The notes under the pieces: generated by a model | Databases searched by the model: none | Told to the model about the DNA's origin: nothing | The model's input: the letters and a program-made list of their open reading frames with translations, nothing else | Assembly (NCBI GenBank): GCA_025266875.1 | Contig: JALLLT010000006.1 | Location: 372,001 to 436,000, forward strand | Direction: 5' to 3' | Length of the DNA: 64,000 bases | From: Fennellomyces sp. T-0311 | Taxonomy: Eukaryota; Mucoromycota; Mucoromycetes; Mucorales; Lichtheimiaceae | Translations under genes and position numbers: made by a program | Shown: positions 13,920 through 51,620 of the stretch, one piece after another | Layout: each line of letters starts with the position of its first letter | How positions within the stretch are numbered: position 1 is the first letter of the stretch

Positions 13920-15072
13920 CTAGATAGAAAGATAAGTACATGTGCAGTTCCAGATCGTGCCGTTATCACACGTACCGATAGAAGAGGGATGTAACAAAAG
14001 ACCATTATCTTCAAGGACCAAAAGGCGCTGGTGACAGAATTCGTCCTGGTGGATGGTCAGACCATGGAATTCGGGGTATTCGAAGCAGCGGTAGCCAGCA
14101 CGGATGGCCAGTAGGGTGATTGCGGATTGATCTTGACGATGGTTCGCACGAGAGGAGGAGGGAGGAGCAATGCACTTTTCTTCCAAGGCACAGTGATACC
14201 AAGGATCGATCAATTCATCCACGACGCGTTGATTGTCTGCATCGAAGCCGACAGCAGCACCATTGCAATTCTCGTACATCTCAAAATCCTTCCTTCGCAG
14301 CTTAAAGTAATTGAACATGCCAATATGATTGAACTTGGATCCAATCAAGCCGGTGCTTCGAGGGGACCAGAACCCATACTGGCGGATATATTGCGGGATC
14401 ATCTTCATGAACAAAGCATTGGGCACATCGCCTGTATCCAGCCAGACAATCACACCGCCGTACTTCTCCTGCGCTTCCTTGACAATGCCCGGCTTCCACG
14501 CGTACTGTCCACGAAGAATCTGGACATTCCAGAACGGTGGGTACGCCTCGTAGTTGAAATCGATCAGCTCGTCAAAATACTTTTCCTTGAGCAGATTGTG
14601 AATGATCAACTGCTGGTTGTTGTCGATTCCCAAATTGTATACGACCAGTCGTGGAAAGTCGCCTGGAGAAACATACTTCTTTAATTCGCGGAAAGTGTAC
14701 AGCATGCTTTCCAAAGCACAAAAGTGATTGCTACTGGCTGCCGTGACTATCGTGAATGGAAAACTGTCGTCTTCAGCCGCGGGCTCGATGATTTCGTCGG
14801 GTGCCAGCACGACTTCGTTTTCAGACTCCAATGGTGGTGGTGGTGGTGGTGGTGGCGGCGGTGGCGGCGGGGCGACCGGTTCCTTGCATGTTTCTCCGGT
14901 ACACTCTTCGCTGATTCCTGAACATATTACACGTTATTTTTTGGCGTTACTCGAGTGCGCGTCATTTACCTGATACAGAGGATGCTTCATTGGCTTGTCG
15001 TGCAATGAATATTAAACAGATTATACAAAATGCAAAGATAGATTGTAAGATGATGGATCGTTTGAGAGGCAT
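13920..15072 (-). CDS. Type II membrane DUF1647-like putative glycosyltransferase
   Basis: Two exons (14970-15072 and 13920-14917) join in phase to 366 residues. The start MPLKRSIILQ at 15072 is followed by a single hydrophobic segment (residues about 6-24, SIFAFCIICLIFIA), a signal anchor that would place the rest in the Golgi or ER lumen. A stretch of 12 prolines encoded by (CCA/CCG)n follows at about residue 50. The globular domain begins TIVTAASSNHF and contains PRLVVYNLGI, an aromatic AWKPGIV block, VIVWLDTGD (a possible DxD-like acid pair) and RQDQSAITLLA. These match the DUF1647 family pattern as I know it (nucleotide-diphospho-sugar transferase-like), but sugar and acceptor are unknown. 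The giant element at 15856-30636 ends about 780 bp upstream of this start. Confidence 0.75.
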
Positions 15073-15846
15073 GATTGAAAATGTCTATATGAACATGTAG
15101 AAATTAACGAGTGGATGAGCGGTATATGGGTGAGCAGGTCGAAAGGAGGGAGGGCCAAAAAAAGAAAAAGCAAACGAAGGGGGTGAGGAGAAGCAAACAA
15201 GGTTTGAAGGGCACACTTGCTTCGTCGGAAAGAGCTGACCGTGTCGTCTTTCTTTGTACTACATGCGTTCCTATTTATAGCCATTGACCTTTCTGCCATG
15301 CTAATTGCCCTTGCAACGCCCCTCTCCGTTTAGATTCTCGGCTTTTCCATTACACACAGGCGTCACAACTTGTATCATTCTAGGCTTCAGAATAATCATT
15401 GGCAATCCTCTGAAACTGTGAAAAAGGGGCATGACAGGTTTATTTACATTTTCTTTTTGCTGAAAATGAAAAAATTCTGCATCTTTAAAAAAAATTAAAA
15501 GGCGATCGATCCCATTTACACTAAGAGTGGAAGACGTTCCAGCCACCTGTTTTTTTCACACAGCAGGCCTTTTTTTTTTAGTTTGGATGCGTATACTCGG
15601 GTAACTGGATCGAGATACACATGCACGCAAGCGCTTAATGAGCAAGTCATTGCGTAAGAATCAATGTTGACGTATGCGCCATCACAAATTACGTGTTTTG
15701 ATAAACAGTGTTGTCCTTAACTGGAGTACAATCACAAACATGATACACGTGACAAACAAGAGCTGTCAAAAATAGGACTTAGACTTGTTCTGATCCGCTG
15801 AGCGGGTACAGCTGCTCTCTCAGTAATTAACGCCGGTTACCACGGT
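15073..15846. promoter_or_regulatory. Upstream region of the DUF1647-like gene
   Basis: Non-coding sequence containing CT/GA-rich tracts near 15120-15190 and poly-T runs, typical of fungal promoters. No specific motif can be assigned. Its outer edge was truncated from its original upstream context by the transposon insertion at 15856. Confidence 0.35.
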
Positions 15847-15855
15847 AATGTTTTT
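15847..15855 (+). repeat. Left target-site duplication, AATGTTTTT
   Basis: Nine bases directly abutting the left terminus (GGCGGG...) of the giant element. The identical nine bases follow the right terminus (...CCCGCC) at 30637-30645, in the same orientation. Nine-base duplications are usual for Mutator-type insertion; other superfamilies make 8 or 10-11. Confidence 0.85.
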
Positions 15856-18607
15856 GGCGGGCTTGAAGTATCTGGACTTGAACGCAAGCGAATGAAGGAC
15901 CGAGCTAGTCTCGTTGTCTCACCTAGGCAGCCTATGAAATGTCCAGCTACGCTCAATGTGCTACGTGAGGAGGAACAGCATCACCATAACCGTAAAAGGT
16001 GAATGGCGTATGTCAGCTCATCACGTTCGCCATAAAAATATTATATATGACACTATTGCTATTTTTCTGTATTCCAACGGAGCATCCCTTGTTAGACAAT
16101 TGAATAAATTGCTTTCTATATATAGAAAGAAACAATCGTATTTGTTGTGTACGTGTACGTATACAAAAGACAACATCTCCTACAAAAAAAGAATAATGGT
16201 GCCACATGGCGTTTTGTCATTGATTATACTACATTCTGGCCGAATGATTCCGTTGCAGTAACTCTTGTGCTCTATTTTGGTCAAATAATAATTGCAGTAA
16301 TCATTCCGGTCTTAGGCTTTATGGAATTTGGAAATAAATTACAATGTGTTGTTGGGAATGCGTACGTATGTAGGCAAAAGGGGTTGGATTAATTAAGCCA
16401 GGGGAAAGTTTATCGGCCATGACAGAATGTTGTATACACCATCTGAATTCCGATACGTATTTGTAAAACAATTACTTTGTTGCCACGTACAAAGAAAAAG
16501 AGCACATGATGGTACAGGCGCGCAATGTGATATTTTTAATTGTTATAAATAACGACTTGAAGAGACAGCGTTCAGCATTCTTTTTACTTTTTTTCTGGAA
16601 TCTATGGGTGACAACACCAGTGGTGGGATCACTTTACCAGAAAGACGACGAGGATGAAAGCCTGGTGGATCCAACCCCAATGGTGGACGACGCAAGCAGT
16701 TATTACCTGGTCAAACTCGAATGGACCGTTATCAATTCAGGCCTACAGCAGGCTCTAGTAACACTGTTAGTAAACTGTGAGGGGTTGGCAATCAGCTCTA
16801 GGTTTTTAATACGAAAATGCAAAACATTGTAGGTCAACGTTGTATCGAACGCATCTTCATCTTTCATGGATACAGGCAATCAACAGACAGTTGGCGCGAC
16901 TGATGTAAGCAATCATACGCATACCGTTACTTTCACAAGACATAATGCTTATCGATAAGCCTACTTACGTGCATAGGAAACTCAAGAGGCTGATGACGAT
17001 AATGATCTTGTATCTGGCCTTGGTACATTGATGCGAGAATTGGAAGTTGGCAATATGGAGATTCAATGCGACGACGACGCGAGTCTTCCCGAGGACGATC
17101 AAAATATCGAAGATGACACCACCTACACCGAGCACCCAATTCTTGTCGACTACTTTCGTAAAATCAAAGACGATATCATCGTCCAGTGCAAGAACAAGGG
17201 TGCGCCTGATGTGTGTACAAAGGGCAAAACCTTTTGGATTGAACCACCAGCACCATATTTTGCACTGTATACTGGACCTGCTGACCCAAAAAAGCTCTAC
17301 TATCCTCGCGATTTTCTTTGGCAACCACATCGCTTGTCATTGAGCAAAGATTTGGTTTGCCCCAACTCTAAGTGCACAGGTCGAAAGCTGAATTCCAAAG
17401 GGTACAACCATAAACCGTATGCTCGCCGTGTCGTTGACCTTGACAGGTAATTTATTAATTCAAGAGACCTTGAGAATATAAAATAGCAGACAAACTCCTT
17501 AGTTGCTTCTACATCATGTCCACTAGATACCGTTGTCCCAGAGGAGCTGGTGGTTGCGGCCTTTCACTGAACGCGCGCGACGATAAAATCCTTGAACAGC
17601 TTCCGCCTCAACTTCAAGCCGAATTTCCAGCATACTTGACGCATCGCAGCGCTGTCTCCAAAAATCTCGGTAACTTGCTTCGTGCTGCCGTGCAAAACGG
17701 CCTGGGTGTCCATCGGCTGCAACGTCTACTACGCGAGCTCCATGTTCTACGGTATGCCACCCGCCGCCTGCAGTATGCAAACACACTTGTGCACCGCCAA
17801 GAATATCCCACTGTACACGACACGCCCACAGCACCCGGTAAACCTGTCAAGTACAAGCGTTTCTCGAAATTCAGTGATCCAGAAGGATATTCAGGGTGCA
17901 TTCCGTCCACTGGGTACCTTCGGCTTGTGTACACCGCCTTGATGGATCAGCTAAGGTCGCTAATCGATAAAGAGCTAGCGATACTTGCAGGAGTGATTCT
18001 CAAGGGCGACCATTCATTCAAAGTTCCGAAGCATATGGCGAAGCTTGGAGGTTCATCAGCATTCACTGCCCTATACACCGTTTGCAATGAGTATGAAGAA
18101 ATACGCTTGTAGCTCCTGGCGCTGACAAAGTCCACAGCCCATTTAGAGCAGCCATTGAAGGATATGATCGCGTCGTATAATCTGTACAAGCAGAAACTCC
18201 CTGAATTGCTCTTCACCGATGACGTGAAGGGCGACCGTCGACTCCTAGAGCGCTCCATCCCATCGCTCAACCGGGCAATAGGCAACGAACAGCAAACAGA
18301 CGAGACTCACCAAAACCAACCACGCCAGAATTTCTTGGACCTTCCGCCCACAGTTAACGTTGAAATCGCCCAGACCATCCCTGAAGTCGAGAGCGCCGTA
18401 CAAAGTATTCGCAACCACGCCACCACCCCCACTCAACCATTTGTTGTTGGCTTCGACTGTGAATGGAACTTCGATCGTATCAGCAAGGTTGTAGGCAAGG
18501 TCTCTCTGGTACAACTTGCATGCTTGGATTCGGTGTGGCTCTTTCCACTTGACCCTTCTGGAAACGTTCCGCATGCTTTGGCTTCATTGATCGCTGACCC
18601 CAATATA
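15856..18607 (+). repeat. Left terminal inverted repeat (2752 bp)
   Basis: Runs from the terminal GGCGGG to CCAATATA inside the exonuclease coding region. It contains about 1 kb of upstream sequence plus the first part of the transposase gene including its introns. Compared with the right copy I see one substitution (a Gly/Asp change in a spurious frame near 16000) and one 3-nt length difference near 16130. All other reading frames compared are identical. Confidence 0.9.
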
Positions 18608-21263
18608 TTGAAAGCTGGTCGCAACGTCACTGGGGATCTGAAGAAACTCAATCGTGATTATGGAGTTGTATGGAAAGGTGCTCTAGAGCTTGGCTCGTTT
18701 TGCAGACGTCGACGTGCTATTGAACGCGGAACTATGGGGCTATCCGACATATCTGGTACCGTGCTTGGAGGCTACTTGCGCAAGGACTCGAACATCAGGT
18801 TAAGCGATTGGGAACATCTCGAACTCGACGAGGATCAGAAGACATATGCTGCCTTGGATGCCTGGGCTTCGCTCAAAATATTTGACAAGGTCAAATATCG
18901 CGTGATGTATGGAGAACGTCTGCCAACGCCTACCCCAGCTGGGTTTCCATGCTCACTGTAGTACGCTGGAACTGCCGCCGTATTCGGTCATTTTTACAAA
19001 GTTCACAATTCGCGAGACGCCGTGCTTACTGTTACGAGAATCGGGGTAACAGGTGCAGTTGTCACTGTCATGGAAAAGGATGGCGAAGGACTAAAGAAAA
19101 CAGGGAAAGCACTCTCAGACTATGGTGACCTACCATTTGCAATTCGAGTTCCTATCCTTCCTTATGCGATCCCGTACATGTACATGGTTCTCCAAACAGC
19201 GATGGGAACCTATCATTATCACCATTGTTACAGTCGCCATCGTCATCGTCACCGTTACCATTGCGGCTGTCTCCATCTTCATCTTCATCCGAGGAGTCCA
19301 GCGACCACCAAGTTACCCACCCCATAGTGGAAGCCAGTACAAGGATGGAAGTGGATCAGCAGCCTCAACCTCAGTCCCAAGGCCAACAGGATCGCATTCC
19401 CAGGATCTTGAAAGACGTGTTTCATCTGATGAATATGCCGAAAATCTCAAAGAAGCATGGGCTAGCCAAAGAATTCACTCGGGAGTTTCGTGATGCCCTT
19501 TTCATCCTCAATGACGAAGACAAAGCCAGAATCGAGCGACATCTAGAAAGCACGGGTACGAGTTTGGAATATATGTGGGTGAAGAACCTTGATTGGGTTC
19601 TACGACAATGCCGGCGATCGGTACCTCAACCACAACCACTCTATGATACTGTGCAGCTGCTATTCGCGCAGTATGGTCATATGAAGTGTACGAAAACAGG
19701 ACGAGAACTTTTCGACGATGAATCGTGGCGGCAAGCGCGACAAATATTGACAGCGATCATCTCGGGGGATGTATCAGACCCACCAGGCATATCATTATAC
19801 TTTCAAACCGGTGTAGACCAGCACAATCTTCCTCTTTATCGTTGCTGTCGTGGCACAAAGTCGCTCGAAGGTGGCGTACACCAAAATATCATTCGAAAGT
19901 TTGCCTCATTTGGCGCTGGTCCTCACATGACGGATTGCATGTTGGCCGACTACAGGCTGAGACACAATATTGGCGTAAGTGATTGACAGATCAAAGCTGC
20001 TTAGTTTTTGTCGCTTAACATGTGTGCATCTACTTACCTAGGTAGGCTCCAAGAACCGATATGGCAAGAAACACCTTGGGCATTACAATCCATGGCTCAC
20101 TCAGAACATTTGTCTCTTGGAGGATTGATTGTGGCTCGATGATAAAACGCATATTGATCATCCGTCAACTTCCCTCATTGTTAAGAATGCCTTGCCGCTG
20201 AAAATCCCAACCGAAACCTTCGGTATAGCCCCGTTTCCTGTCCATATCGCCGGTAGCCTCGCAATACAAACATGTCCGGAGTCCTTGGATCTACGTCGCT
20301 CTGATCCTGACTTACCTATAAAGCTGTGTACAAACTTGACGATACCTATTGGAGAAACAAGCAACCCAAGCGGACGCATGTATAAGTATATTGCTTCCCG
20401 CCTTCAGACCCTTCATGCTGTGACTCCTGTGCATACCGACCAAGAGTTTAGACTCTTCTCGCGCCTACTGCGTGAAGATACAACAACCAACGGCCAATCG
20501 ATCAACTGGACTCAAAAGGCTAAATATTGGAGCACTCACCATGCAAATGGAGTTGATGTTTTTTTTTTACCAAACTCCAGAAGCATTGAAAGCGCATTAC
20601 TCTGCCTGGTGTACTAGTCAAGTCGCAACAAGAGCCATAGCGAACTACGAAGTTGATATACAAGCTATGCAAGAGCACCTCCAATCACCAGGAAGAGAAC
20701 CCGTAAACAAGAGCATACCTCCAAATATACCAGCTCCTGCGGAAGTCGTGGAATCGAATGACAACTCGTTCATGTTTGCACCGTTTGATCTTGGAAGTCC
20801 ATATTCATCAAGCTCACCTCAATCGGCGGCCACAACAGCAGCGTATCAAACAGCAGCCTCTGTTCAATCGCCTTCTCATACACCATTACTGCTACCTGCC
20901 CCACATCCACAATCATCAGTGTTTTCCAATATGCCTCCCCATCTGCCTTCACAGCAGCAGCAAATGTATTATAGTATGCCGGCGCCTCCACCACCGCCTT
21001 TACAAAAACACTTTTTTCACAGTATGCCACCGCCTCCACTGCCACAACAGCAAATGTATTACAATATGTCACAACTAGTATTTAACAACATGTCTCCCCT
21101 TCCCCCTCCGCAACCAGTACGTTACGATGTGCCACATCAGATACCACCACCCAAAAAGCCTCGACTTCTTTCAGCAGCACCCAATCCATTCACAGCACCA
21201 ACTTCTCCACTAGTCAGTGCATCGCCCCAAGCAGGTGTTGCATCCAACATGAACACACCCTAA
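16866..21263 (+). pseudogene. Transposase-like gene with DUF6729-like zinc region and embedded DEDDy 3'-5' exonuclease, decayed
   Basis: Exons 16866-16904, 16977-17446 and 17503 onward join in phase. The N-terminal part has a Cys cluster (VCPNSKCTG, then YRCPRGAGGCG), resembling fungal DUF6729. ILKGDHSFKV (GAC at 18008) and LLFTDDVKGDRR (18218-18234) look like the first two acids of a DDE core. A complete exonuclease follows: FDCEW (18455), NVTGDLKKL (18635), YAALDAW (18845). Then RGTKSLEGGVHQNI (GAA at 19867) resembles the E motif, and a Pro/Gln-rich tail ends at 21263. Breaks: in-frame TAG at 18110 and 18959, a frame change near 19150-19225, an in-frame TGA near 20127, and a frameshift at a T10 run near 20560. 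An intron at about 19978-20041 is intact. Known: DEDDy exonucleases are RNase D/WRN-like. Inference: the DDE assignment and the fusion. Confidence 0.7.
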
Positions 21264-21404
21264 CAAGCTTCTTTGTCATCTACGTTGTCCATCAGCGAAT
21301 AAGAGCTTTCCATCCTTACCGCCGCTTCCCACTTCCGACATCGGAACGTTGAGCTTCATGCTTACCAAATACTCAGCCAATCAGGTTACTCATAGACACG
21401 ACCT

Positions 21405-21499
21405 TCCGGTCAACGCGTCTCTTCACGGATATGCTCTGTCAGCATTCATCCTATCGATCATCACGATCCGTAACTGCTCAATGATAATAAGGTTGACAT
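21405..21499 (+). repeat. Dispersed repeat fragment, copy 1
   Basis: Shares CGGTCAACG, a TCTTCACGGATATGCTCTGTCAG-like core, TTCATCCTA, GATCATCACGATC and ACTGCTCAA..ATAATAAGG with the minus strand of 46081-46181. The second copy lies next to an unrelated decayed transposase, so this may be a piece of an interspersed element. Confidence 0.65.
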
Positions 21500-21934
21500 T
21501 ACACATCACTCACGGAAATACCGGCTTAAGGAAATCCCATCATGGATAAGCATTTATTATAAATAGAGAGAGCAAAACATATGAAATAAATCAGTTACCT
21601 TTTTGAGTCTCGTTGACATATTTGTCTTTTACACTTGCTTCTCTCTGATTTAACAGCAGAGGATCATTCGTACATGTACAATATGCAAAAGAACTGACTG
21701 TAAAGGACGCGTAGCCTCAAGATATTGCAAAAACAACCCATAGTTCATAGTTATATGCAATAAAATTCATTATGCTCTAGTGTTCACTACTAAAAAAGTT
21801 CGTACCATCGAAGCGTAATATAGCATTGAAAGCATTTTGTACCGTTCTGGCTTTATTATATTTGATGGAACATGATATGCGATGTATTTACCCACGCATA
21901 TCAATATATACATGCCACTATTTGTACAAAAATA

Positions 21935-21965
21935 CATTTATAGGCGCTGAAAGCGCCTATAAATG
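21935..21965. repeat. Near-perfect hairpin, 14-bp stem and 3-nt loop
   Basis: CATTTATAGGCGCT, loop GAA, AGCGCCTATAAATG. One mismatch further out the pairing resumes for three more pairs. It lies between the transposase-like gene and the tandem repeats, in the element interior. It could be a transcript-end structure, a tiny foldback element, or a relic of an insertion end. Confidence 0.7.
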
Positions 21966-22285
21966 CATTCTTGAAAAATCAAAGAATTAATTCCATCGAG
22001 CCCAGACATGTTATCCGTGCCCATTTTTGAGATGGCCCAAACCTCTCTACTAGCACATTTTTTTATTGTTCTCTCGAATAAATATGGAAAGATGGTAACA
22101 CAATCACTGGATCCATCTGACTCGAACAATGAAATGAAGCCTTCGGCCTACGGCCTCGGCGAAATGGCACAAGCGGTCCATAACAATGCCAAGTCGGGAA
22201 ATGTGTACTTAAACCGTAATCACTTTTTATTCTACTTTGTGTCACCCCATCTATTTATTCTGTATAAACGTTTTGGAAGTCATCC

Positions 22286-22949
22286 ACTATAGAAGCTTGT
22301 TAGACGTTGTCAAAAATGGTAGAGCCATTCACCTTATTGTGCAACGCGCACATACAGTAGGCATACGCTACTCATGATGGTCCATACGCGCGGACAAGTC
22401 CCAGGCGCATGGCAATCAGCGATCCCATCACTTTCACTTAGGGCGTCTGAATACACAAGACTACTACTGGCACCATTCAATCAGCGAACCAGCAGACTCC
22501 TTTGCCTTTTCTGAGTGGTTAGACCAACAGAAGCCGGAAGTACTATAGAAGTTTGTTAGACGTTGTCAAAAACGGTAGAGCCATTCACCTTATGGTGCAA
22601 CGCGCACATACAGTAGGCATACGCTACTCATGATGGTCCATACGCGCGGACAAGTCCCAGGCGCATGGCAATCAGCGATCCCATCACTTTCACTTAGGGC
22701 GTCTGAATACACAAGACTACTACTGGCACCATTCAATCAGCGAACCAGCAGACTCCTTTGCCTTTTCTGAGTGGTTAGACCAACAGAAGCCGGAAGTACT
22801 ATAGAAGTTTGTTAGACGTTGTCAAAAACGGTAGAGCCATTCACCTTATGGTGCAACGCGCACATACAGTAGGCATACGCTACTCATGATGGTCCATACG
22901 CGCGGACAAGTCCCAGCGCATGACAATCAGCGAACCAGCAGATTCCTTG
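22286..22949 (+). repeat. 256-bp tandem repeat, two full units and one deleted unit
   Basis: Units start with ACTATAGAAG at 22286, 22542 and 22798, exactly 256 bp apart, and units 1 and 2 are nearly identical. Unit 3 lacks the segment between two CAATCAGCGA copies that occur within each unit. This is the signature of deletion between short direct repeats. Each full unit also encodes SEPADSFAFSEWLDQQKPEVL then a stop, similar to the first exon residues of the gene starting at 22919. Confidence 0.85.
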
Positions 22950-25450
22950 GTCGTAAAGGACTTTGCTGGATTATTTTTTAGTGCAGATAACGGATTATTT
23001 ACAGTCACGGAGAATCCAAGGATATTTCGTATTGGGCAGCCATACCGCGCACGTGCCACAGTTACCTTGAACAATTCCGGACAATGGACTCTTCAACAAA
23101 GTACAGTGGTTATGAAGGTAGGATTCGGAACACATTCTTGACTTGGAACATGTATTGAATGATCGCACTCTCGGCAGAATTAAAGGCCTTCGTACAAAAA
23201 CATAAGCAACCGATCTTCAAGAATTTTGTAAAGGAGAACCAGAGAAATCTTGTGCTATGGTCTGTTAATCTCTCGGAATATTCCGCTCGAATGCCCAATG
23301 GTATCTGGGTCGAGCGGTATAAGCAAGTCCTAATGGAAGTGCGCGGGAATGCTGTGTGGTAACGGAAAAGTGACGATAATCCTATTCAGTTACTTAAAGG
23401 TGCTCCTTTTATGTAGTGCCAAGAATATCAAGTTCAAAGAATTGCTATGGAATGATATTATGGCAAGTGTATCGAGGCGAGTACGTGAAGATGAAGCATT
23501 CTGTAGAATCACAACGGCGGTACCTTATAATTTTTCAACGCAGAGAAAACTAGCTAGGACGTATATTGATGAGGGCGTCAATGCATTGACCCAGGTAGCG
23601 CCACTTGCAAGTCATGAAGCCAGAGAAACTATTGAACAGTGGTCCAAGTCTTCCTCAAGCAATAGTGGTGCAGTACCGCCGACGACCACACACACAAACA
23701 ACAGTAGTCCCATTGCACCTACAACCGCAACGACAAGTAGCAATCATTCTTATGCAGAACCACAGATAGAAACCAATGAGTTTCTGTTTTCTGTCGCCGC
23801 GAAAAAGGTAAAACGGTCAACAGAGTATATTCATCGATCTTACAGTTTGAATTTTAGCTGAGGAATGAAGTCGATTCACTTGAGACAGCACAGCTGCAAA
23901 CATATGTGACAGAAGGGGATACAATCAGAGATAAAATGACAAACCACGCAATTCACCTGTTGTCAAAGAAAAATCTCACGTTGCTGGAGACTGAATTAGT
24001 CAAGTAAGGACAAGAATGAGATAGGAAAAAGAAATGGAATTTAAGTACTGCGTTCCCTGTAGATTGTTGCTCTGCGGTGTGGTCAATCTGTTGGATCCAT
24101 TAGCACACGAAGCAATGAAAGCAATATTCACTGATAAGCAACTCAAGCACTTGATGAAGAATGACACTTTCGATCGAGAAAGCTACGGCATTGATTTGAT
24201 GGCGCTCGCAAAGCTAAATGAAATTGTGGAAAACTGGTACGAGCCATGAAAATGTCTTCTAGTAAAAGAGCTGGCGCTAAGCGTATGTTTTTGTGTAGCA
24301 AAAGCCTGGAGAATCTACTTAAAACGGTCTTACAAGCCAAAATTGACTTGATTGATAGCAAGGAGCGTGACTCGGATACGTACAAAATGCTATGCATACT
24401 GGGGACAGTGTAAGTCAGCCCCTCAATACTTCCTATCTTCTATTTTACCTTTTCTCTTTTCAACATTAGTGGAGAGTACATGGATATTCCATTGAACGAA
24501 AAGACGAGCGAAGCAACTGTGTATAGACGGTTTGCAGTTCTGCTCGATCTTTTGTTTGCTGGCCTTCATATTGAAATGAAAGAGTAAGAATACTGTATAA
24601 ACTACCTCTGATGTCCTCTGATAATATTCTTTCTACAGTGGCCGCTTTATATAGCGATATTTTGTATAACGATAATTCGATATAACGATACAATTCTCGA
24701 TGCACCAAAACGGTAATCTCTGCCAAATCCCATTTTATATAACGATATTCGATATAACGATAAAGTTTGGGCTGCACCATCGTATCGTTATATAAAGCGA
24801 CCACTGTAGTGGCGAAGTCGTTGCTGATGCAACCAAGTCAGCTATGGAACAGAATGAACACGAGATATCTCAATCGCAAGGCAGGAAAATCGATTTGTTA
24901 CTGGTTACGAAAGGTCGCGAGCTGGAACTGGCATCTAACGAATGGAAGACGTTCCACTCCAAGCATTTGATCCTCCAACAGCAAAGCAAAAATCTCAGGT
25001 GTAACGCGGCCATTCTAAACAACCTGTACATATCCAGCAAAGGCAAAGTAAGCACGGTTATGGCTGTAGATTTCGTTGGTAAGGAGTTAAGTATATTTTC
25101 GAGCTAAAGTGTAACTGACTGCTACTGTTACAGGAACAATCGGGTACATGTACCTTCTCGTGCTAAAGGGGAATGTATACGTGCCAACTGTCATCCAGCC
25201 ATTGTTCCTGCCCACTGACATGAGCCAACTACCAGCATTCATTGGCACCATCAAGGGACTTTTTGTGTGGAAGGATTTTCTTGAGGAGCAAGTTAGGATC
25301 TTAAAATTGACAACTATGAAACAGAAGTTAGGCGATGTTGTTTATATGCCCACGACTGACGATTGTGAAGCACTCCCCATGATCTTCTTCACTCCAAAAC
25401 GTACACGGAAAAGATCAATCGGTGAAGTTTATGATGATGATAATGAATAA
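22919..25450 (+). CDS. Cargo gene with PD-(D/E)XK nuclease-like domain
   Basis: A multi-exon gene, or a slightly decayed one. Likely coding blocks: 22919-23119 (MTISEPADSL...), about 23159-23359, about 23440-23810, 24250-24413, 24472-24583, 24810-25079 and 25138-25450. The last joins are clear: 24413 to 24472 (ILGTV|GEYMDIPL) and 24583 to 24810 (EMKD|GEVVADATK). The C-terminal half contains QGRKIDLLL followed by ELELASNEWK, a D...ExK arrangement expected of PD-(D/E)XK nucleases, and ends in a basic then acidic tail (PKRTRKRSIGEVYDDDNE). The family looks like one of the uncharacterised lineage-specific proteins of Mucoromycota. The N-terminal exon arises from the third tandem-repeat unit. It lies inside the giant element, so it is probably cargo. 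Nuclease activity is inference. Exact 5' exon limits are uncertain. Confidence 0.55.
24636..24806. mobile_element. 171-bp MITE (pogo/Tigger-like) with TA target duplication
   Basis: Inverted termini CAGTGGCCGCTTTATATAGCGATA and (reverse complement of the other end) CAGTGGTCGCTTTATATAACGATA match at 22 of 24 positions. The element is flanked by TA at 24634-24635 and 24807-24808. Internal ATAACGATA motifs repeat several times. It has no coding capacity. CAGTG-starting ends plus TA duplication fit Tc1/mariner-pogo derived MITEs. It sits in an intron of the cargo gene, and its right-hand TA forms the first two bases of the TAG acceptor. Confidence 0.9.
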
Positions 25451-25722
25451 AGAAATGAACAAGTAGTGGATAAATAATGTCACCCATTCATACCCTCTCC
25501 CTATCGATATTCTATCTCTTTAGTACGTATATACGTATTATTATGTGTTATGGTTTTCTAATCGGACTCATACAGGAAAGCTGTAAAAGCTTAGTCATGA
25601 GATTGCTAGCATATAAGAACATCCCCAGCAGTGTCCGCATTCATGTCCGAATCTGTAAATGAAGTCAAAATAGAGATCAGCGGCGCAGGTCCATAAAAGT
25701 TTTATTTACTCTTTCTTTCACT
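25451..25722. other. Spacer before the Harbinger remnant
   Basis: Non-coding, with a palindrome TACGTATATACGTA near 25522 and the sequence CAGTGTCCGCATTCATGTCC near 25630. The latter could be the left end of the Harbinger remnant, but its partner end is missing, so this cannot be confirmed. Confidence 0.3.
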
Positions 25723-26785
25723 ATGTCGTCTTCTGAAAACACCCTCGTCCTACTACTCCTGAACCTGCTATGACTACCAAGAAGTCTAGCAAACGTGCGG
25801 CAACTACCGAGTCTGGCGCACCTGATAAAAAGGACGTGGTCGAAATTTCAACACGAGAGACAAGCAACTTTGTGCTTCGTTCCTGGAGAAATCGGTCGAC
25901 CCGATCGTTGGCCATGACAAAAAGCTCATCGTTCATTGGGAGCAAGTCACCGAGCATTTCAACTCGGAAAGACAGTCTGCTGTCGATAAAGCAAACGAGA
26001 AGTTGAAGAAGAAGAAGTTCACGGAGCGCAGTAGAAAGTCATTGATGCATCGATGGAGTGCTATACACCCTAAAGTGAGAAGCTTCTGCTCGTATTACGA
26101 GAGGGAAGTGCGTACCATTGGAAGTGGAAATAATAATCCTGATACGCCGGTAAGTTCTTAATAGCTAGTTTACATTTATAGCCCTATATTCATATTATCA
26201 ATAAATGCAGATGATTTCTCAGCTCGATAACGTACTCAACACGTATCTCGAGGTGTTGGGCGAAGAATTCGAGTTTCTTGAATGCTGGAAGATCCTGCGC
26301 GAGTGCCCAAAGTAGGAATTGCACTGCGAGGAAGAGACTGAGAAGGAAGAGGCGAAGAAGCACAAAAGGAGCGAAGGAGGTGAAGAGGAGGGCGATGCGG
26401 ATGATGAGGGTGCGCAAGGCTCCATGCGCCCTATGGGAACCAAAAAAGCGAAAGACTCGGTTGCCCAGGCCCGTCTCATCGAGATGAACCGCTGTGCTGA
26501 CCTTGAGCTGCAGAAGCAGCATGTTGATTGGCTGCTAAGCACTACGAGCTATTGAAAAGAGCAGACGAGCGCGAGGCCAAGCGTGATGCAATGATGAGAG
26601 ATGCTGATGACAGAGAAATTATGTCGAAGGATCTCACCAACATGACCCAGATCCAGCGTCAATATTTTGAGATCGTTCAAAAGGAGATCCTTGAAAGAAA
26701 ATTGGCGGAAATGAAAGCGAAGACTGTTGCTATTCAGGTCGAAGGCGTTAGTTCTGATGATGAAATGCACGATGAAGAAGAATAA
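25723..26785 (+). pseudogene. Myb/SANT-like accessory protein of a PIF/Harbinger transposon, frame-disrupted
   Basis: Begins MSSSENT at 25723, then changes frame twice. The recognisable domain is FNTRDKQLCASFLEKSVDPIVG with HWEQVTEHFNSERQ and KSLMHRWSAIHPKVRSF, the pattern of the Myb/SANT-like (NAM-associated type) DNA-binding partner that Harbinger elements encode. An intron at about 26152-26209 is intact. A further in-frame TAG (near 26313) and a frame change near 26535 follow, then a Lys/Glu-rich coiled region ends at 26785 (SSDDEMHDEEE). In active Harbinger elements this protein carries the transposase into the nucleus and binds subterminal repeats. Convergent with the transposase remnant at 26870-27881. 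Confidence 0.7.
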
Positions 26786-26869
26786 AGGAAAGATGAAATC
26801 TATGCCGATGAAAACTATGATTAAAACTTGTGATACTTTTTGTAGAACTTTTAAAAGTTTATCAATTAT

Positions 26870-27881
26870 TTATTTTCCTAATGCATCGTAGCGCGACCAC
26901 ACATGCTCGATTAAATCGTTTTTTAGCTGGTAATGCGTATCACTGTTCATGATCGCTTTATGACGAGCAACACGTTCGCTTACGGCAGCATTGTGTTCAC
27001 GCGATGCAGGACTTCCGATAACAAAGCCATACGTTTCTTGTATTTTTTTTATGTAGTTTTCGTTGTCATCATCGTCGTCATCGCCGTCATCGTTGTCGTC
27101 ACTATCATCGCTGTTTCTGTTTTTGTTGTTACGATCATCTTCAATGATCATATTATGTAGGATGATACAGGTCATCATCACCGTCTTGAGGTCCTGTTTC
27201 ATCCAAAATCTTGCTGGTTGCTTTACAATTGCAAAGCGACCCTGCAACACTCCAAAGGCACGTTCGATATCCTTACGAAAACTTTCTTGCATTTTCGCGA
27301 ATCGCTATACAATATTTCATTACATTTGATTAGAAAATTCGTTGGTTTACATATTCATTAGCAGTTTCTTACTTGGTTTTTGGGTGCCTGAGGTTCTGGG
27401 ATACTTTGAATCAGTGTTGCCCATTTTGGATATATATCATCAGCAAGGTAATACCTCATTTCGCACTGATTGCCATTGACAGTGTACTTGACAGTTGGTG
27501 CAACGCCATGAATAAGCTGGTCAAAAAGGGGCGAGCGATACGGCTGCGTAATGTTATTGAAGGTACCAGGAAGGCCAAAGTCTGCATGCCAGAACCAAAG
27601 GTCCTTGGATGCAACTGCTTCAAGGAGGATCGTTGCTGCCTTTTCTTTGCCAACGTACAATATGCCATGCCTTGAGGCAATTCTTCCATTCTAGTGCATA
27701 CAGTCCAGTGACCCGAGCATTCCTGGAAAGCCGCGCTTTTCATCAGCTGCCAATAGCCTTACTATATCATGTTCGTTGGGCGCACGAAGATAGTAGTCCT
27801 TGAACACCGCAACAACTGAATCATCAGAATCGCTTCAAAGGTTCGATTGCTGTGCTTTCATTGATCTTCAAATACACTACG
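26870..27881 (-). pseudogene. PIF/Harbinger transposase, 5'-truncated and with a stop
   Basis: Reading leftward: YLKINESTAIEPLKRF, then after a frame change VAVFKDYYLRAPNEHDIVRLL, GFPGMLGSLDCMH (first catalytic D), a TAG where Trp is expected, ILLEAVASKDLWFWHADFGLPGTFND-like residues (second D region), YYLADDIYPKWATL, an intron near 27290-27370, then ERAFGVLQGRFAIV (catalytic E) and CIILHNMIIEDDR. This is the DDE_Tnp_4 superfamily. An Asp-rich run (about residues 60-75 of the last exon) interrupts the C-terminal part. The N-terminal portion is absent: homology begins within a few bases of the inner edge of the right terminal repeat at 27882, so the repeat cut the gene. Confidence 0.85.
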
Positions 27882-29623
27882 TATATTGGGGTCAGCGATC
27901 AATGAAGCCAAAGCATGCGGAACGTTTCCAGAAGGGTCAAGTGGAAAGAGCCACACCGAATCCAAGCATGCAAGTTGTACCAGAGAGACCTTGCCTACAA
28001 CCTTGCTGATACGATCGAAGTTCCATTCACAGTCGAAGCCAACAACAAATGGTTGAGTGGGGGTGGTGGCGTGGTTGCGAATACTTTGTACGGCGCTCTC
28101 GACTTCAGGGATGGTCTGGGCGATTTCAACGTTAACTGTGGGCGGAAGGTCCAAGAAATTCTGGCGTGGTTGGTTTTGGTGAGTCTCGTCTGTTTGCTGT
28201 TCGTTGCCTATTGCCCGGTTGAGCGATGGGATGGAGCGCTCTAGGAGTCGACGGTCGCCCTTCACGTCATCGGTGAAGAGCAATTCAGGGAGTTTCTGCT
28301 TGTACAGATTATACGACGCGATCATATCCTTCAATGGCTGCTCTAAATGGGCTGTGGACTTTGTCAGCGCCAGGAGCTACAAGCGTATTTCTTCATACTC
28401 ATTGCAAACGGTGTATAGGGCAGTGAATGCTGATGAACCTCCAAGCTTCGCCATATGCTTCGGAACTTTGAATGAATGGTCGCCCTTGAGAATCACTCCT
28501 GCAAGTATCGCTAGCTCTTTATCGATTAGCGACCTTAGCTGATCCATCAAGGCGGTGTACACAAGCCGAAGGTACCCAGTGGACGGAATGCACCCTGAAT
28601 ATCCTTCTGGATCACTGAATTTCGAGAAACGCTTGTACTTGACAGGTTTACCGGGTGCTGTGGGCGTGTCGTGTACAGTGGGATATTCTTGGCGGTGCAC
28701 AAGTGTGTTTGCATACTGCAGGCGGCGGGTGGCATACCGTAGAACATGGAGCTCGCGTAGTAGACGTTGCAGCCGATGGACACCCAGGCCGTTTTGCACG
28801 GCAGCACGAAGCAAGTTACCGAGATTTTTGGAGACAGCGCTGCGATGCGTCAAGTATGCTGGAAATTCGGCTTGAAGTTGAGGCGGAAGCTGTTCAAGGA
28901 TTTTATCGTCGCGCGCGTTCAGTGAAAGGCCGCAACCACCAGCTCCTCTGGGACAACGGTATCTAGTGGACATGATGTAGAAGCAACTAAGGAGTTTGTC
29001 TGCTATTTTATATTCTCAAGGTCTCTTGAATTAATAAATTACCTGTCAAGGTCAACGACACGGCGAGCATACGGTTTATGGTTGTACCCTTTGGAATTCA
29101 GCTTTCGACCTGTGCACTTAGAGTTGGGGCAAACCAAATCTTTGCTCAATGACAAGCGATGTGGTTGCCAAAGAAAATCGCGAGGATAGTAGAGCTTTTT
29201 TGGGTCAGCAGGTCCAGTATACAGTGCAAAATATGGTGCTGGTGGTTCAATCCAAAAGGTTTTGCCCTTTGTACACACATCAGGCGCACCCTTGTTCTTG
29301 CACTGGACGATGATATCGTCTTTGATTTTACGAAAGTAGTCGACAAGAATTGGGTGCTCGGTGTAGGTGGTGTCATCTTCGATATTTTGATCGTCCTCGG
29401 GAAGACTCGCGTCGTCGTCGCATTGAATCTCCATATTGCCAACTTCCAATTCTCGCATCAATGTACCAAGGCCAGATACAAGATCATTATCGTCATCAGC
29501 CTCTTGAGTTTCCTATGCACGTAAGTAGGCTTATCGATAAGCATTATGTCTTGTGAAAGTAACGGTATGCGTATGATTGCTTACATCAGTCGCGCCAACT
29601 GTCTGTTGATTGCCTGTATCCAT
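27861..29623 (-). pseudogene. Truncated duplicate of the transposase-exonuclease gene in the right repeat
   Basis: Start codon at 29623 mirrors 16866. It contains the Cys cluster, ILKGDHSFKV, the TAG at 28377-28379, FTDDVKGDRR and FDCEW, then leaves the repeat at 27882. The frame runs a few codons into the Harbinger remnant and stops. If transcribed it could give only a protein ending at the TAG, about 200 residues into the third exon. It has no Exo II, Exo III or E motif. Confidence 0.8.
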
Positions 29624-30636
29624 GAAAGATGAAGATGCGTTCGATACAACGTTGACCTACAATGTTTTGCATTTTCGTATTAAAAACCTAGAGCTGATTG
29701 CCAACCCCTCACAGTTTACTAACAGTGTTACTAGAGCCTGCTGTAGGCCTGAATTGATAACGGTCCATTCGAGTTTGACCAGGTAATAACTGCTTGCGTC
29801 GTCCACCATTGGGGTTGGATCCACCAGGCTTTCATCCTCGTCGTCTTTCTGGTAAAGTGATCCCACCACTGGTGTTGTCACCCATAGATTCCAGAAAAAA
29901 AGTAAAAAGAATGCTGAACGCTGTCTCTTCAAGTCGTTATTTATAACAATTAAAAATATCACATTGCGCGCCTGTACCATCATGTGCTCTTTTTCTTTGT
30001 ACGTGGCAACAAAGTAATTGTTTTACAAATACGTATCGGAATTCAGATGGTGTATACAACATTCTGTCATGGCCGATAAACTTTCCCCTGGCTTAATTAA
30101 TCCAACCCCTTTTGCCTACATACGTACGCATTCCCAACAACACATTGTAATTTATTTCCAAATTCCATAAAGCCTAAGACCGGAATGATTACTGCAATTA
30201 TTATTTGACCAAAATAGAGCACAAGAGTTACTGCAACGGAATCATTCGGCCAGAATGTAGTATAATCAATGACAAAACGCCATGTGGCACCATTATTCTT
30301 TTTTTGTAGGAGATGTTGTCTTTTGTATACGTACACGTACACAACAAATACGATTGTTTCTTCTTTCTATATATAGAAAGCAATTTATTCAATTGTCTAA
30401 CAAGGGATGCTCCGTTGGAATACAGAAAAATAGCAATAGTGTCATATATAATATTTTTATGGCGAACGTGATGAGCTGACATACGCCATTCATCTTTTAC
30501 GGTTATGGTGATGCTGTTCCTCCTCACGTAGCACATTGAGCGTAGCTGGACATTTCATAGGCTGCCTAGGTGAGACAACGAGACTAGCTCGGTCCTTCAT
30601 TCGCTTGCGTTCAAGTCCAGATACTTCAAGCCCGCC
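27882..30636 (-). repeat. Right terminal inverted repeat (2755 bp)
   Basis: Reverse-complement copy of 15856-18607, with one 3-nt insertion and one visible substitution. It carries a 5' fragment of the transposase-like gene with start at 29623, the same introns, and the same in-frame TAG (28377-28379). The coding copy ends after Exo I, before Exo II, with an added RSVFEDQ and stop contributed by Harbinger sequence. Confidence 0.9.
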
Positions 30637-30645
30637 AATGTTTTT
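30637..30645 (+). repeat. Right target-site duplication, AATGTTTTT
   Basis: Identical to 15847-15855 and directly abutting the right terminus. The COG8 stop codon lies 58 bp further right, so the insertion fell in the COG8 3' flank. Confidence 0.85.
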
Positions 30646-30702
30646 GCTGTCCAGTATGTTTCACAAGTTTCAAACATTGTGACATGCCAAAAATAAAAAG
30701 TA

Positions 30703-32535
30703 TTACGCATTTGCTGCTTTATTATCATTCTTTTGCTTTTCGGTACTGTCATCAACTAGATCCGATTCCTTGGATTCATCTTTAGAAACTTTTTTCTCGT
30801 CACTTGATTTTTCGCTCAGTGGTTGTCCATTTTTGCCGTTGACTTGTTCCGTTGGCTTTTCATCATCCTTCTGCTGTTCGGTACTTTCGACCTGTTCATC
30901 TGTCTTTTCAGTACTCTCGCCTGGTTCATTTGCGTTTTGTTCCGTGCCCTCGGGTTGTTCATCCGCCTCTGCCACCGAATGCTCTTCTGCCTTGACACCA
31001 AGCAATTCCTCCAAATCCTTATTACTGATGGCCGATTCGGGAAGTTGGATATTGGCATAAATCACGTCCAGCAAACAGCTCTTGAGGAAGGGCACACAAC
31101 AACGCACATAGGCCAAGACGAATGATCTCACCATGGGATCACTGCTGTCTTTGGTATATTGTTTGAGAGCATTCCCAATCTCCAGGAAACAGGCATCCAA
31201 ATGACTCTGGATGGGTCTTTGGAGGCTGACAGCAGGTAACAACCTCAATGCATTGAATGCGGATAAAATGGCGTTGGTATAAATGGCCAAAGGCGGATAA
31301 TTGACAAGCAGCATGGGTGGTTGACTGGGATGTCTGCTGTAATCGTCGGCATCTTGTGTCGCACGCGTACTGCTTGCTGACATCCATGACTTGTCTGTTG
31401 AAATGGCGGCGATAAGTTGCTCCGTTGCTTGGTCGATCCATTTCAAGATAAGCGGCCGCAAGGTATCTTCGAAGGCGCTGACGAACAGGTGGCGGAAATC
31501 CAGCCCGATTCTTCCGAGCGACATGCCGCAATATTGGATCTGAGTGAGGAGTGAAGCGAGCGAGGAGGTGTCTGTTATCTTGGCAAGTTGAGCTTTCAGG
31601 GTGCTTTGGAAATGATCCGAGATCAAGCGAACCATATAATCGGAAAGGATCAATATGCTCTGTTGTTCCTGGTGTGAAAACACCGACATGTACTGCGTGG
31701 CGATTTCAAACATTTGTTCGCGCATGACATCAATGTATCGCTTCATATACTCGAACGCTTCCTGAGCACCCACATCCTCCTTGCGCGTCTTGATCCGGTC
31801 CAGCCGTTGCGTCAAATAATCATGTCGACAGCGCAAAAACACCATCCTCAGTTCCATTTCGGATTCAAACACGTCCATTCGTCTCAAATGACCAATAACG
31901 TTCATAGCAGCTGCCAATTTAATCGGCTGACGAAGATGTTGGACCAGTTGGACCAGCATCAGGTCGGCCGAAGCCTGGACTTGCTGCTGAATACTGCGGA
32001 CAATCGGAAGCGGGTATCGCACCAGCAATAATCGGACATGGGATGCCAGATCCATGGCTTCGGAATAGTATCCGTTCCATACGCACGTTTCCATCAGTTG
32101 AGGTATTTCCAACAGATCCACAAGCACATTTTGGTGCTCCAGCACGTGTGTGATCTTTGATCGTTCGTCAGCAATCGTTTGAGCCGACTGACCAAACACT
32201 TGACAAGCATCGTACAGCCCAGGGACAGTGTCCAAAAAATCCGTCAACTGGTCTTGCAGGTCATCAAGCGTCGAATCAACTCGCTGACGACAATTGTTGG
32301 CAAGAATAAACGCTGGATAGTCATTAAACGCAAGTTGTTGAGCATCTCGTCTCATCTTTTCTTGTTCGACGCGAAGTTCGTTGGGTTCACGCAGGAGTTC
32401 ATCCAATGGTAATGACGTGAGTCGTGTTAAATAGTCGCGCGTCCATTTGGAAGTCTCGATGGATTGACACTGTTGCTGGTCCCAGGATTCAGATAAAAGT
32501 TGGAGTAAAGCGTCATTGCCGTCGAGATCAGTCAT
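30703..32535 (-). CDS. COG8: Conserved oligomeric Golgi complex subunit 8
   Basis: COG8 is a lobe B subunit of the COG tether that recycles Golgi glycosylation enzymes by retrograde vesicles. A single exon gives 610 residues from ATG 32535 (MTDLDGNDALLQLL); the frame is open further upstream but has no ATG. The Dor1/COG8 core runs over about residues 20-430, with LPLDELLREPNEL, FILANNCRQRVDSTLDDL, LLEIPQLMETCVWNGYYSEAMDLA and GLDFRHLFVSAFED. The last about 90 residues are a Glu/Lys/Gln/Asp-rich low-complexity tail unlike the core. The gene is divergent from SNF8 across only 92 bp. Its 3' end is 58 bp from the giant transposon, so its polyadenylation region may lie partly within the terminal repeat. 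Confidence 0.93.
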   Translation of the reverse strand: MTDLDGNDALLQLLSESWDQQQCQSIETSKWTRDYLTRLTSLPLDELLREPNELRVEQEKMRRDAQQLAFNDYPAFILANNCRQRVDSTLDDLQDQLTDFLDTVPGLYDACQVFGQSAQTIADERSKITHVLEHQNVLVDLLEIPQLMETCVWNGYYSEAMDLASHVRLLLVRYPLPIVRSIQQQVQASADLMLVQLVQHLRQPIKLAAAMNVIGHLRRMDVFESEMELRMVFLRCRHDYLTQRLDRIKTRKEDVGAQEAFEYMKRYIDVMREQMFEIATQYMSVFSHQEQQSILILSDYMVRLISDHFQSTLKAQLAKITDTSSLASLLTQIQYCGMSLGRIGLDFRHLFVSAFEDTLRPLILKWIDQATEQLIAAISTDKSWMSASSTRATQDADDYSRHPSQPPMLLVNYPPLAIYTNAILSAFNALRLLPAVSLQRPIQSHLDACFLEIGNALKQYTKDSSDPMVRSFVLAYVRCCVPFLKSCLLDVIYANIQLPESAISNKDLEELLGVKAEEHSVAEADEQPEGTEQNANEPGESTEKTDEQVESTEQQKDDEKPTEQVNGKNGQPLSEKSSDEKKVSKDESKESDLVDDSTEKQKNDNKAANA

Positions 32536-45096: not shown

Positions 45097-46475
45097 ATAT
45101 GAACATACCTTATGTATATTACTTTTTTATATCGACTGTGAATTTAAACATATCTATTGACCAAGCGTCATGCTCTGTAAAGGAGCACCCTGTTCTGCTA
45201 TTTTGCACGAAATTACCAGTGTTTACGTACGAAACGACAATTCTGTCTACGTCCATCGATAATGCCATATACGAATGGCTAGGTACTACTTAACGCATTG
45301 ATAGATGGGATAATGTGACAGGTCAGGTTACGCTAAGGCGTATAAAATTAATCGAGTTCCGGTTAATTCCATGTGTACCAAATCAGATTCATACATATGT
45401 ATATCAGATAGGGCACAAGCCTGATCTTGTGATAGTACTCGTCATTTGATTACTTTTCATGGGCCCAGTAGCCCCTAACTTTTTCGCAGATGGCTTAAAG
45501 TTACATATCACCGCGTACCATTTGTAATATCCCTTATTTAGGTGCACCTTTTTTATCTTATGGGAGGCAACAGTGTACCCCTAATCTGTAATCCAAAGTC
45601 ATTCCCTAAAGTGTTACATGCGATTGGGTGAAACTCACGAGTATAAGACTGCTAATCAGACATATGTCTGTAAAACTACAGTAATATTTTATCGCTTGTT
45701 TCGATACCAAAGCCGTCACTTGCAATACAAGGGAAACATAAGCCTACATATTACTTTAGACAATTCCACATTTCAATAATACTGCATTTCGTTACGTACT
45801 CACTCATGTAAATGAAAGGCTTAATTTTATGAGGAAATGTTTTAAGGTAGTGGTGACTGCCACAACGGTAGATACCAGCTTTAATTAATAATGTCCGGCC
45901 GGATCATCAGAGTATATATATTTTCAACAGCTGGCTTTTTGTACGTACAGTACACATTGTTCCGGATTTCGCTACAACATCCAATCAAGAGAATGGCTAC
46001 TACGAACATTACATGGTCAACCACAGTATCAGCCGAGATAGTTGGAGTGAAAACAAGAGAAGAACAAGTGTAGAGGTGAATATGTTAGCCTTATTATTGT
46101 TGAGCAGTGACAGATCGTGATGATCGATGTGTAGGATGAACGCTGACAGAGCATATCCATGAAGAGTCACGTTGACCGACACAATGCCAGTTGTCATATT
46201 GTAATTAGCCCCTTTCTCCTGTTTCTCTTCCATTTTTCATATATATTCAACATGTTCAGTTATGCTGAAATTCTTGACCAGAAACTTGTCAATCTTCAAA
46301 CTCTCTTGGTACGGAGTATTTATAGACAGTCTGCTGCGAGAGAACCGAGAAAGACATTCAACTTAGATAACGTTACGGGCGAAAAGTGTCTCAAAAGTTT
46401 CGTTTTATAAAGACGTAAGTACGTAAAAACAAAAATCATGAGCTAGTTCTCAAGCTATATAAGTTCCTTCAAATA
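45097..46475. other. Intergenic, with one dispersed repeat fragment
   Basis: AT-rich, with no gene supported. It contains the second copy of the dispersed repeat (46081-46181) and borders a decayed transposase. Confidence 0.5.
46081..46181 (-). repeat. Dispersed repeat fragment, copy 2
   Basis: The minus strand matches 21405-21499 through CGGTCAACG, ATGGATATGCTCTGTCAGCG, TTCATCCTA, GATCATCACGATC and ACTGCTCAACAATAATAAGG. Confidence 0.65.
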
Positions 46476-51010: not shown

Positions 51011-51289
51011 ATGAAAACAGGAACTCGGTGTACTGTACTATTTTGCCGTCACACTGACAGAAGTTGACCTTTTGCTCAATTTCATAGGGGGCACCCGAAT
51101 TTTACAAAAGGCGCTGTGAGGAGGCACCTTTTTTCATGTTACCCCCACAAACGCAGTCAAGTCCATTCGCGAAGCCTCGGCCCAGAGGCTTGATCCCCAC
51201 CGTTGTTTACTGTGCGTCATTATTTGCGGTTGGGTTATTTAAAGCGCTTTGAAACGGATAAAATTTTTCTTTCTTCCAATCCAACCTTC

Positions 51290-51620
51290 GTGGTTTTCGC
51301 CTTCACCGGCTTCAGCCTTTACGGCTTACCCTTGTGGATTCAGCCTTTATGGCTTATCCTTGTGGATTCAGTCCTCGTGGCTTCAACCTTCGTGGTTTTA
51401 GCCTTTACGGCATCAGCCTTTACGGCTTCAGCCTTTACGGCTTCAGCCTTTACGGCTTCAGTCTTCGTGACTTCAGTCCTCGCGACTTCAGCCCTCGTGG
51501 TTTTTTTTTATTTTTATGTGCCTCGTGGCTTTTTTTTATTTTTATGTGCCTCGTGGCTCCAGCCTTCGTGGTTTTGGCCTTTACGGCTTACCCTTCGTGG
51601 TTTTTTTCCTTTACTACTCT
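51290..51620 (+). repeat. 15-bp minisatellite (CTTCAGCCTTTACGG-type units)
   Basis: About 18 degenerate units; the core is four near-perfect repeats around 51415-51465. All three plus frames stay open, one reading GFSLY/GFSPR pentapeptides, another TASAF. Whether it is translated is unknown. Confidence 0.75.

Follow-up and report, generated by a model that had tools for sequence, protein, structure and literature searches.

Which kind of mobile DNA begins and ends in inverted arms of 2.75 kb, spans 14.8 kb and carries a 9-bp duplication at its borders? The question is posed by a unit in the window (the whole stretch of DNA analysed, 64 kb long), which the initial annotation took for a giant transposon with the arms as its terminal inverted repeats (TIRs) and with Mutator-like integration. 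Mutator and Foldback elements have long TIRs and 9-bp duplications, and the duplications of Mutator elements (MULEs) are mostly 9 bp long. The unit resembles Mutator and Foldback elements in appearance, by its long inverted ends and its 9-bp duplication; unlike theirs, its long inverted ends are not the normal termini of its family. The best reading is a composite insertion much like the maize Ac/fAc type, and we consider this reading likely.

Organization of the unit

Comparison of the window with itself gave an inverted match of 15854-18607 with 30638-27882 over 2757 alignment columns (99.855% identity, one mismatch and one gap). The two columns farthest out are part of the duplicated target, and the arms were trimmed to 15856-18607 (2752 bp) and 27882-30636 (2755 bp). 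They differ by a substitution at 15999 and by 3 nt missing from the left arm at 16126, which bears out the near identity noticed initially. With the relative on contig C71 as the reference (176 substitutions in 2725 aligned bases), both differences are changes in the left arm.

The same nine bases, AATGTTTTT, adjoin the outer ends of both arms (15847-15855 and 30637-30645), as had been noted; elsewhere in the 64 kb they occur once more on the plus strand and not at all on the minus strand. The probability of a 9-mer matching by chance at two given places is ∼4e-6. The claim of a true insertion with a target duplication is supported. The unit is composed as follows.

15847..15855, no strand: target duplication AATGTTTTT, left copy
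15856..22021, plus strand: element A (6166 bp), a complete copy of the family, bounded by left end GGCGGGCTTGAAG and right end GTGCC
15856..18607, plus strand: left inverted arm, the first 2752 bp of A
21998..22021, plus strand: the family's normal right end GAGCCCAGACATGTTATCCGTGCC
22022..22285, no strand: DNA just past the right end of A, containing stretches common to dispersed repeats
22286..25617, no strand: low-copy segment, 90-95% identical to C150:1338341-1341562
24634..24808, no strand: short high-copy element, TA-CAGTGG...CCACTG-TA, missing in the C150 paralog
25624..27874, minus strand: Harbinger-type transposon, incomplete
27875..27881, no strand: filler of 7 nt at the inner junction, joining the cut Harbinger to B
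27882..30636, minus strand: B, the inverted first 2755 bp of A's element, with its left end outward
30637..30645, no strand: target duplication, right copy

On one side of the unit lies a COG8 gene (Dor1 family, E 2.1e-74), whose stop codon is 57 bp from the unit's end, and on the other a DUF1647-like gene (E 0.0003, below the cut-off). Two further repeats were seen in the window: a 97-bp stretch, at 21407-21499 in A, recurs inverted at 46082-46178 with 86% identity, and local direct repeats, 78-92% identical, are clustered at 51282-51587.

Copies of the family in the genome

The assembly to which the window belongs (45.6 Mb, 182 contigs) was searched with the unit's first 300 bases, and many copies of the left end were found. 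Where the family stops is revealed by copies of ∼1.5 kb: their right end, ..CAGACATGTTATACGTGCC, is followed by a repeat of the eight bases that precede the left end. Thirteen copies other than A begin with the left end GGCGGGCTTGAAG.. and finish with a right end unlike it, ..CAGACATG..GCC. The left-end pattern has 37 sites at up to three mismatches (two in the reversed control) and the right-end pattern 22 sites (none in the reversed control). They form 14 left–right pairs in the same orientation, including A of the window; in the 13 other pairs the right end lies 1.5 to 5.9 kb from the left end. Over the first 30 positions, the two ends of the family agree at 16 to 19 in 10 copies (17 in the window); in most copies both ends carry a GGC tip and, at positions 16-22, TCTGGGC.

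A perfect 8-bp duplication flanks eight of the 13 copies (those on C150, C117, C111, C140, C6, C94 and C133, and C139:1312k). Counting the terminal C extends the match by a ninth base in two of these, C94 and C139:1312k, whose duplication is then readable as 9 bp. The five both-ended copies lacking a clean 8-bp duplication are one on C1 (no duplication), one on C99 (six of eight bases, in tandem) and three on C135 (a tandem pair and a copy without a clear duplication). A genome search of the kind proposed in the initial annotation did return many left ends; the duplications of the clean copies are of 8 bp.

The tandems are arranged head-to-tail, with a 6-base spacer TTTTTC in one (L006/L007, C135:129990-133013) and a 5-base spacer TTTTC in the other (L061, C99 near 323163); both spacers equal the last bases of the 8-base flank past the downstream copy. 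On C71, inverted repeats of 551 bp, 99.8% identical (L051/L052, 7552-8102 and 11135-11685), enclose two open frames (429 and 215 aa), downstream of a shortened family member. One-ended insertion was considered as a habit of the family, because several copies resembled left ends cut at variable 3′ points, and rejected: among them, the copy on C94 is a both-ended one split by other DNA. For the interrupted copies on C66 and C112 we do not claim LTR retrotransposons: all that is seen is one sequence shared by both breaks, directly past the break on C66 and inverted ∼1.1 kb beyond the break on C112.

The ends of the family differ from each other and its normal right end is internal to the unit, at 22021, which speaks against the arms being the TIRs of the element. 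On this comparison of copies, the unit very probably consists of a complete element A, other DNA and an inverted partial copy B, and is not a transposon with 2.75-kb TIRs.

Transposase gene and superfamily

As the initial annotation had stated, the 5′ part of the transposase gene lies within the arms. In A this gene is broken: in-frame stops stand at 18110-18112 and at 18959-18961, and the reading frame changes before 19129. The features recognised in it are listed below.

16977..20621, plus strand: recognisable transposase coding sequence in A, approximate span
17358..17557, plus strand: DUF6729 cysteine pairs, CPNSKC and RYRCPRGAGGC
18002..18235, plus strand: putative first and second catalytic D, KGDHSFK and FTDDVKGD, by eye
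18452..18865, plus strand: DEDDy 3′-5′ exonuclease motifs FDCEW, GRNVTGDL and YAALDAW
19411..19884, plus strand: putative DxxH (KDVFHLM) and catalytic E (SLEGGVHQ), by eye

The early stop, at the place of 18110-18112, is common to both arms, and hence the window copy was probably no source of full-length transposase before A and B split. The unit itself probably moved in trans, by a transposase from another copy. The transposase frame is open across 725 aa in the C71 relative, and long open frames are carried by other copies (ten seen, the longest of 790 aa).

Profile matches in pieces of the window were to DUF6729 (E 1.7e-9 and 1.6e-9) and DNA_pol_A_exo1 (E 1.1e-16), and the exonuclease domain matches WRN. 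Alignments of relatives and A, read by eye, have the motifs in the order cysteine pairs, KGDHSFK, FTDN, exonuclease, KDxFH and SLEGGVHQ; the spacing of the second DUF6729 cysteine pair differs between relatives. At the C terminus a CCHC motif was not recognised in A, and a basidiomycete relative (P0032) is cysteine-rich there.

The C71 frame matches 38 proteins at E ≤ 0.001 among 7999 scored candidates. Those named come from Mucorales (Circinella, Fennellomyces, Mucor, Apophysomyces and Blakeslea) and from mushroom-forming fungi (Mycena, Tricholomella, Suillus and Armillaria), and the last of the 38 is a vertebrate mut-7 homolog. A structure model of one relative (P0001; 25-sequence alignment, mean pLDDT 65.7, pTM 0.37) resolved the exonuclease and not the DDE core. 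The best 50 fold matches listed for this model all align to the exonuclease region, and nothing follows from them for the fold of the DDE core. A search of a phage collection gave no match and is uninformative. In the open-licence literature we found no paper on DUF6729 and none combining Fennellomyces with transposition terms.

This architecture resembles Dada rather than Mutator. In the part of the published description available to us (PMC3706591), exonuclease-bearing Dada elements of Laccaria and Ectocarpus have a DEDDy exonuclease between the second D and DxxH, and Dada transposases have N-terminal CCCC and C-terminal CCHC zinc fingers. The window family has the motif order given there for the exonuclease-bearing group; both the position of the exonuclease, between the second D and DxxH, and the N-terminal CCCC zinc finger were found. 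As in Dada, there are N-terminal cysteine pairs and putative DDE and DxxH motifs (the latter two assigned by eye), the ends carry short subterminal inverted motifs and no long TIRs, and copies may stand in tandem with a short spacer, an arrangement also described in that account (PMC3706591).

Two features differ. Published Dada elements make target duplications of 6-7 bp, in contrast to the 8 bp of the clean copies here, and all members with clear termini covered by the text at hand insert into small RNA genes (PMC3706591), whereas no such target was seen for the window family: no tRNA was found in the window, in 24 loci or at nine joined empty sites, and Rfam had no match in 15000-31500 of the window or in 20 loci. 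As the duplication length and the target are different, we term the family Dada-like without assigning it to Dada. Superfamily features were also taken from the accessible parts of PMC12730594, PMC8869645 and PMC9587614.

The Mutator-like integration suggested initially is not supported: duplications in clean copies measure 8 bp, and the architecture of the protein matches exonuclease-bearing Dada. We therefore abandoned the Mutator assignment. The MULE profile had no match in the window pieces and matched one of the four relatives scanned (P0020, E 0.0034, below the Pfam cut-off); this weak match is the sole Mutator-like signal seen and counts against the rejection. What emerges is a Dada-like group of Mucorales whose duplications measure 8 bp and for which no RNA-gene target was seen.

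DNA between A and B

Directly past the right end of A stands CATTTTTG, a sequence other than that of the outer duplication. From here to the filler, 5.85 kb of other DNA (the low-copy segment and the shortened Harbinger included) separates A from B. Stretches common to dispersed repeats lie at 22047-22171 and 22226-22290. The low-copy segment opens with ∼2.5 copies of a 256-bp tandem repeat. It has one paralog of 90-95% identity and few protein matches, and for this reason we do not regard it as the body of a high-copy transposon. Its 111-aa frame is 94% identical at the C150 paralog and has three weak matches elsewhere, and the segment may be a captured fragment of a host gene. A donor locus with an identical flank was not found in the assembly; the C150 locus is a diverged paralog of a part only. 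Within the segment, the 175-bp insert at 24634-24808 has TA on both sides and is 95-99% identical to at least 27 other places. A fuller copy of the Harbinger, on C179, continues for ∼500 bp beyond the point where the one in the window is cut off, up to its inverted end.

Origin of the unit

Since the perfect duplication lies outside both outer left ends, we infer that these two ends inserted together; insertion through two left ends is probable on the sequence of the locus. Since the DNA from 22022 onward directly follows the right end of A, and filler marks the other side, the interior appears to have been joined from two broken pieces. That the Harbinger is cut inside and linked to B via filler is what end joining gives. 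If the DNA from 22022 onward is the flank of an earlier insertion, an intact right end of A followed by a sequence unrelated to the outer duplication is expected. A and B are taken for recent copies of one element, as they have the early stop in common and differ by one substitution and 3 nt, against ∼92-93% identity of the nearest other copy seen.

In the proposed mechanism, transposase from another copy would have brought two left ends together and integrated both at AATGTTTTT, which lies between the COG8 and DUF1647-like genes. We favour, tentatively, a one-step origin: one element, present on both sister chromatids, would have been cut at its two left ends and these inserted together. A with 5.85 kb of donor flank would have come in on one side and 2.76 kb of A on the other, before the broken ends within were joined. 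Copies of one element on sister chromatids would account for the near-identical arms; an inverted pair formed beforehand explains them equally well. Against this explanation stands the outer duplication of 9 bp versus the 8 bp of the clean family copies, although it could be 8 bp with one added base, and the use of two left ends is read from one locus only. The five both-ended copies lacking a clean 8-bp duplication, and the search of the assembly that met no donor with an identical flank, count against it too. It is possible, though we hold it more loosely than the origin in one step, that a Dada-like transposase with a WRN-type exonuclease would accept two left ends of sister chromatids, with a stagger longer by one base, and would so capture low-copy DNA. 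Were that so, a single event would capture kilobases of low-copy host DNA between near-identical arms, and DNA capture by composite insertion would occur naturally in transposons other than the hAT and P groups.

The same two-left-end insertion, and a share of the probability given to it, belongs to a two-step course that differs only in order and timing. Here A would have hopped locally to give the inverted B, a deletion would have fused the Harbinger to B, and the finished unit would have moved as a macrotransposon by cut-and-paste. The anatomy would be identical, the clean outer duplication suits simple insertion of a finished unit and the near identity of A and B is as after a recent local hop. 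However, this course takes a copying event of its own, then a deletion and finally a move, and two queries from the middle segment found no second copy or donor of the whole unit; we consider it unlikely.

It is distinctly improbable that A inserted normally and a later break on its right side was repaired by template switching, with copying of the sister left end and capture of the 5.85 kb. The filler at the inner junction does show end joining, and a template switch of one base in the run of Ts could account for the extra base by the right arm, but the junctions of A's right end with CATTTTTG and of B's left end with the duplication would then have hit transposon termini by accident.

A family with the 2.75-kb repeats as normal termini would agree with the unit's anatomy in isolation and with its duplication, and eight left ends (at up to one mismatch, B left out) have no nearby right end; three right ends have no left end, two of them (C90 and C162) near contig ends. 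This explanation is nevertheless highly improbable given the 13 other copies with a left end and a distinct right end, the family right end inside the unit and the spacing of left ends, for the next convergent pair on one contig after that of the window, among the 37 sites, is ∼347 kb apart. Least probable of all is an assembly artefact, near-identical inverted arms being a known hazard for assemblers, because the flanks lie outside the inverted repeat, each outer junction coincides precisely with a transposon terminus beside a duplication, and two differences separate the arms.

The preferred reading, a composite insertion with two left ends outside, bears on annotation in general. Judged from one locus, such units may be catalogued as long-TIR transposons, while the comparison of copies shows that an ordinary transposon can build up a larger, mobile-looking unit carrying low-copy DNA. 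If the two-left-end insertion is right, the unit records, in natural sequence, an alternative transposition in a fungus and makes a testable claim on end recognition by a little-studied exonuclease-containing transposase.

Comparison with known systems

In Tn7, a pair of right ends is competent whereas a pair of left ends is not, according to the portion of the source at hand (PMC10201428), and so competence of a two-left-end pair cannot be assumed. In hybrid element insertion of P elements, as proposed for the unit, the termini of two separate copies take part in one insertion; two identical left ends are not stated in the accessible text of that account (PMC3744419).

The closest parallel is with maize, as far as the available part of the report goes (PMC4270019). 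Its Ac/fAc composite insertions have transposon termini and a duplication outside, flanking DNA inside and an end-joining junction; a solo insertion of 14,287 bp has a target duplication and a junction with 3 bp of microhomology. In the maize events one terminus is the 5′ end of Ac and the other the 3′ end of fAc, whereas both outer ends of the window unit are the same left end; we therefore say that the unit would work like the maize type and do not file it there. The two also differ in the kind of transposon and in the host, here a fungus, and the window event is read from sequence, not seen arising. The interior of the maize type is a copy of the donor flank (PMC4270019); for the window interior, a 90-95% identical paralog of a part was found and no identical donor. 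As in maize (PMC4270019), the outer transposon termini of the window unit abut a target duplication, and its inner junction, with the 7-nt filler at 27875-27881, is of the end-joining kind.
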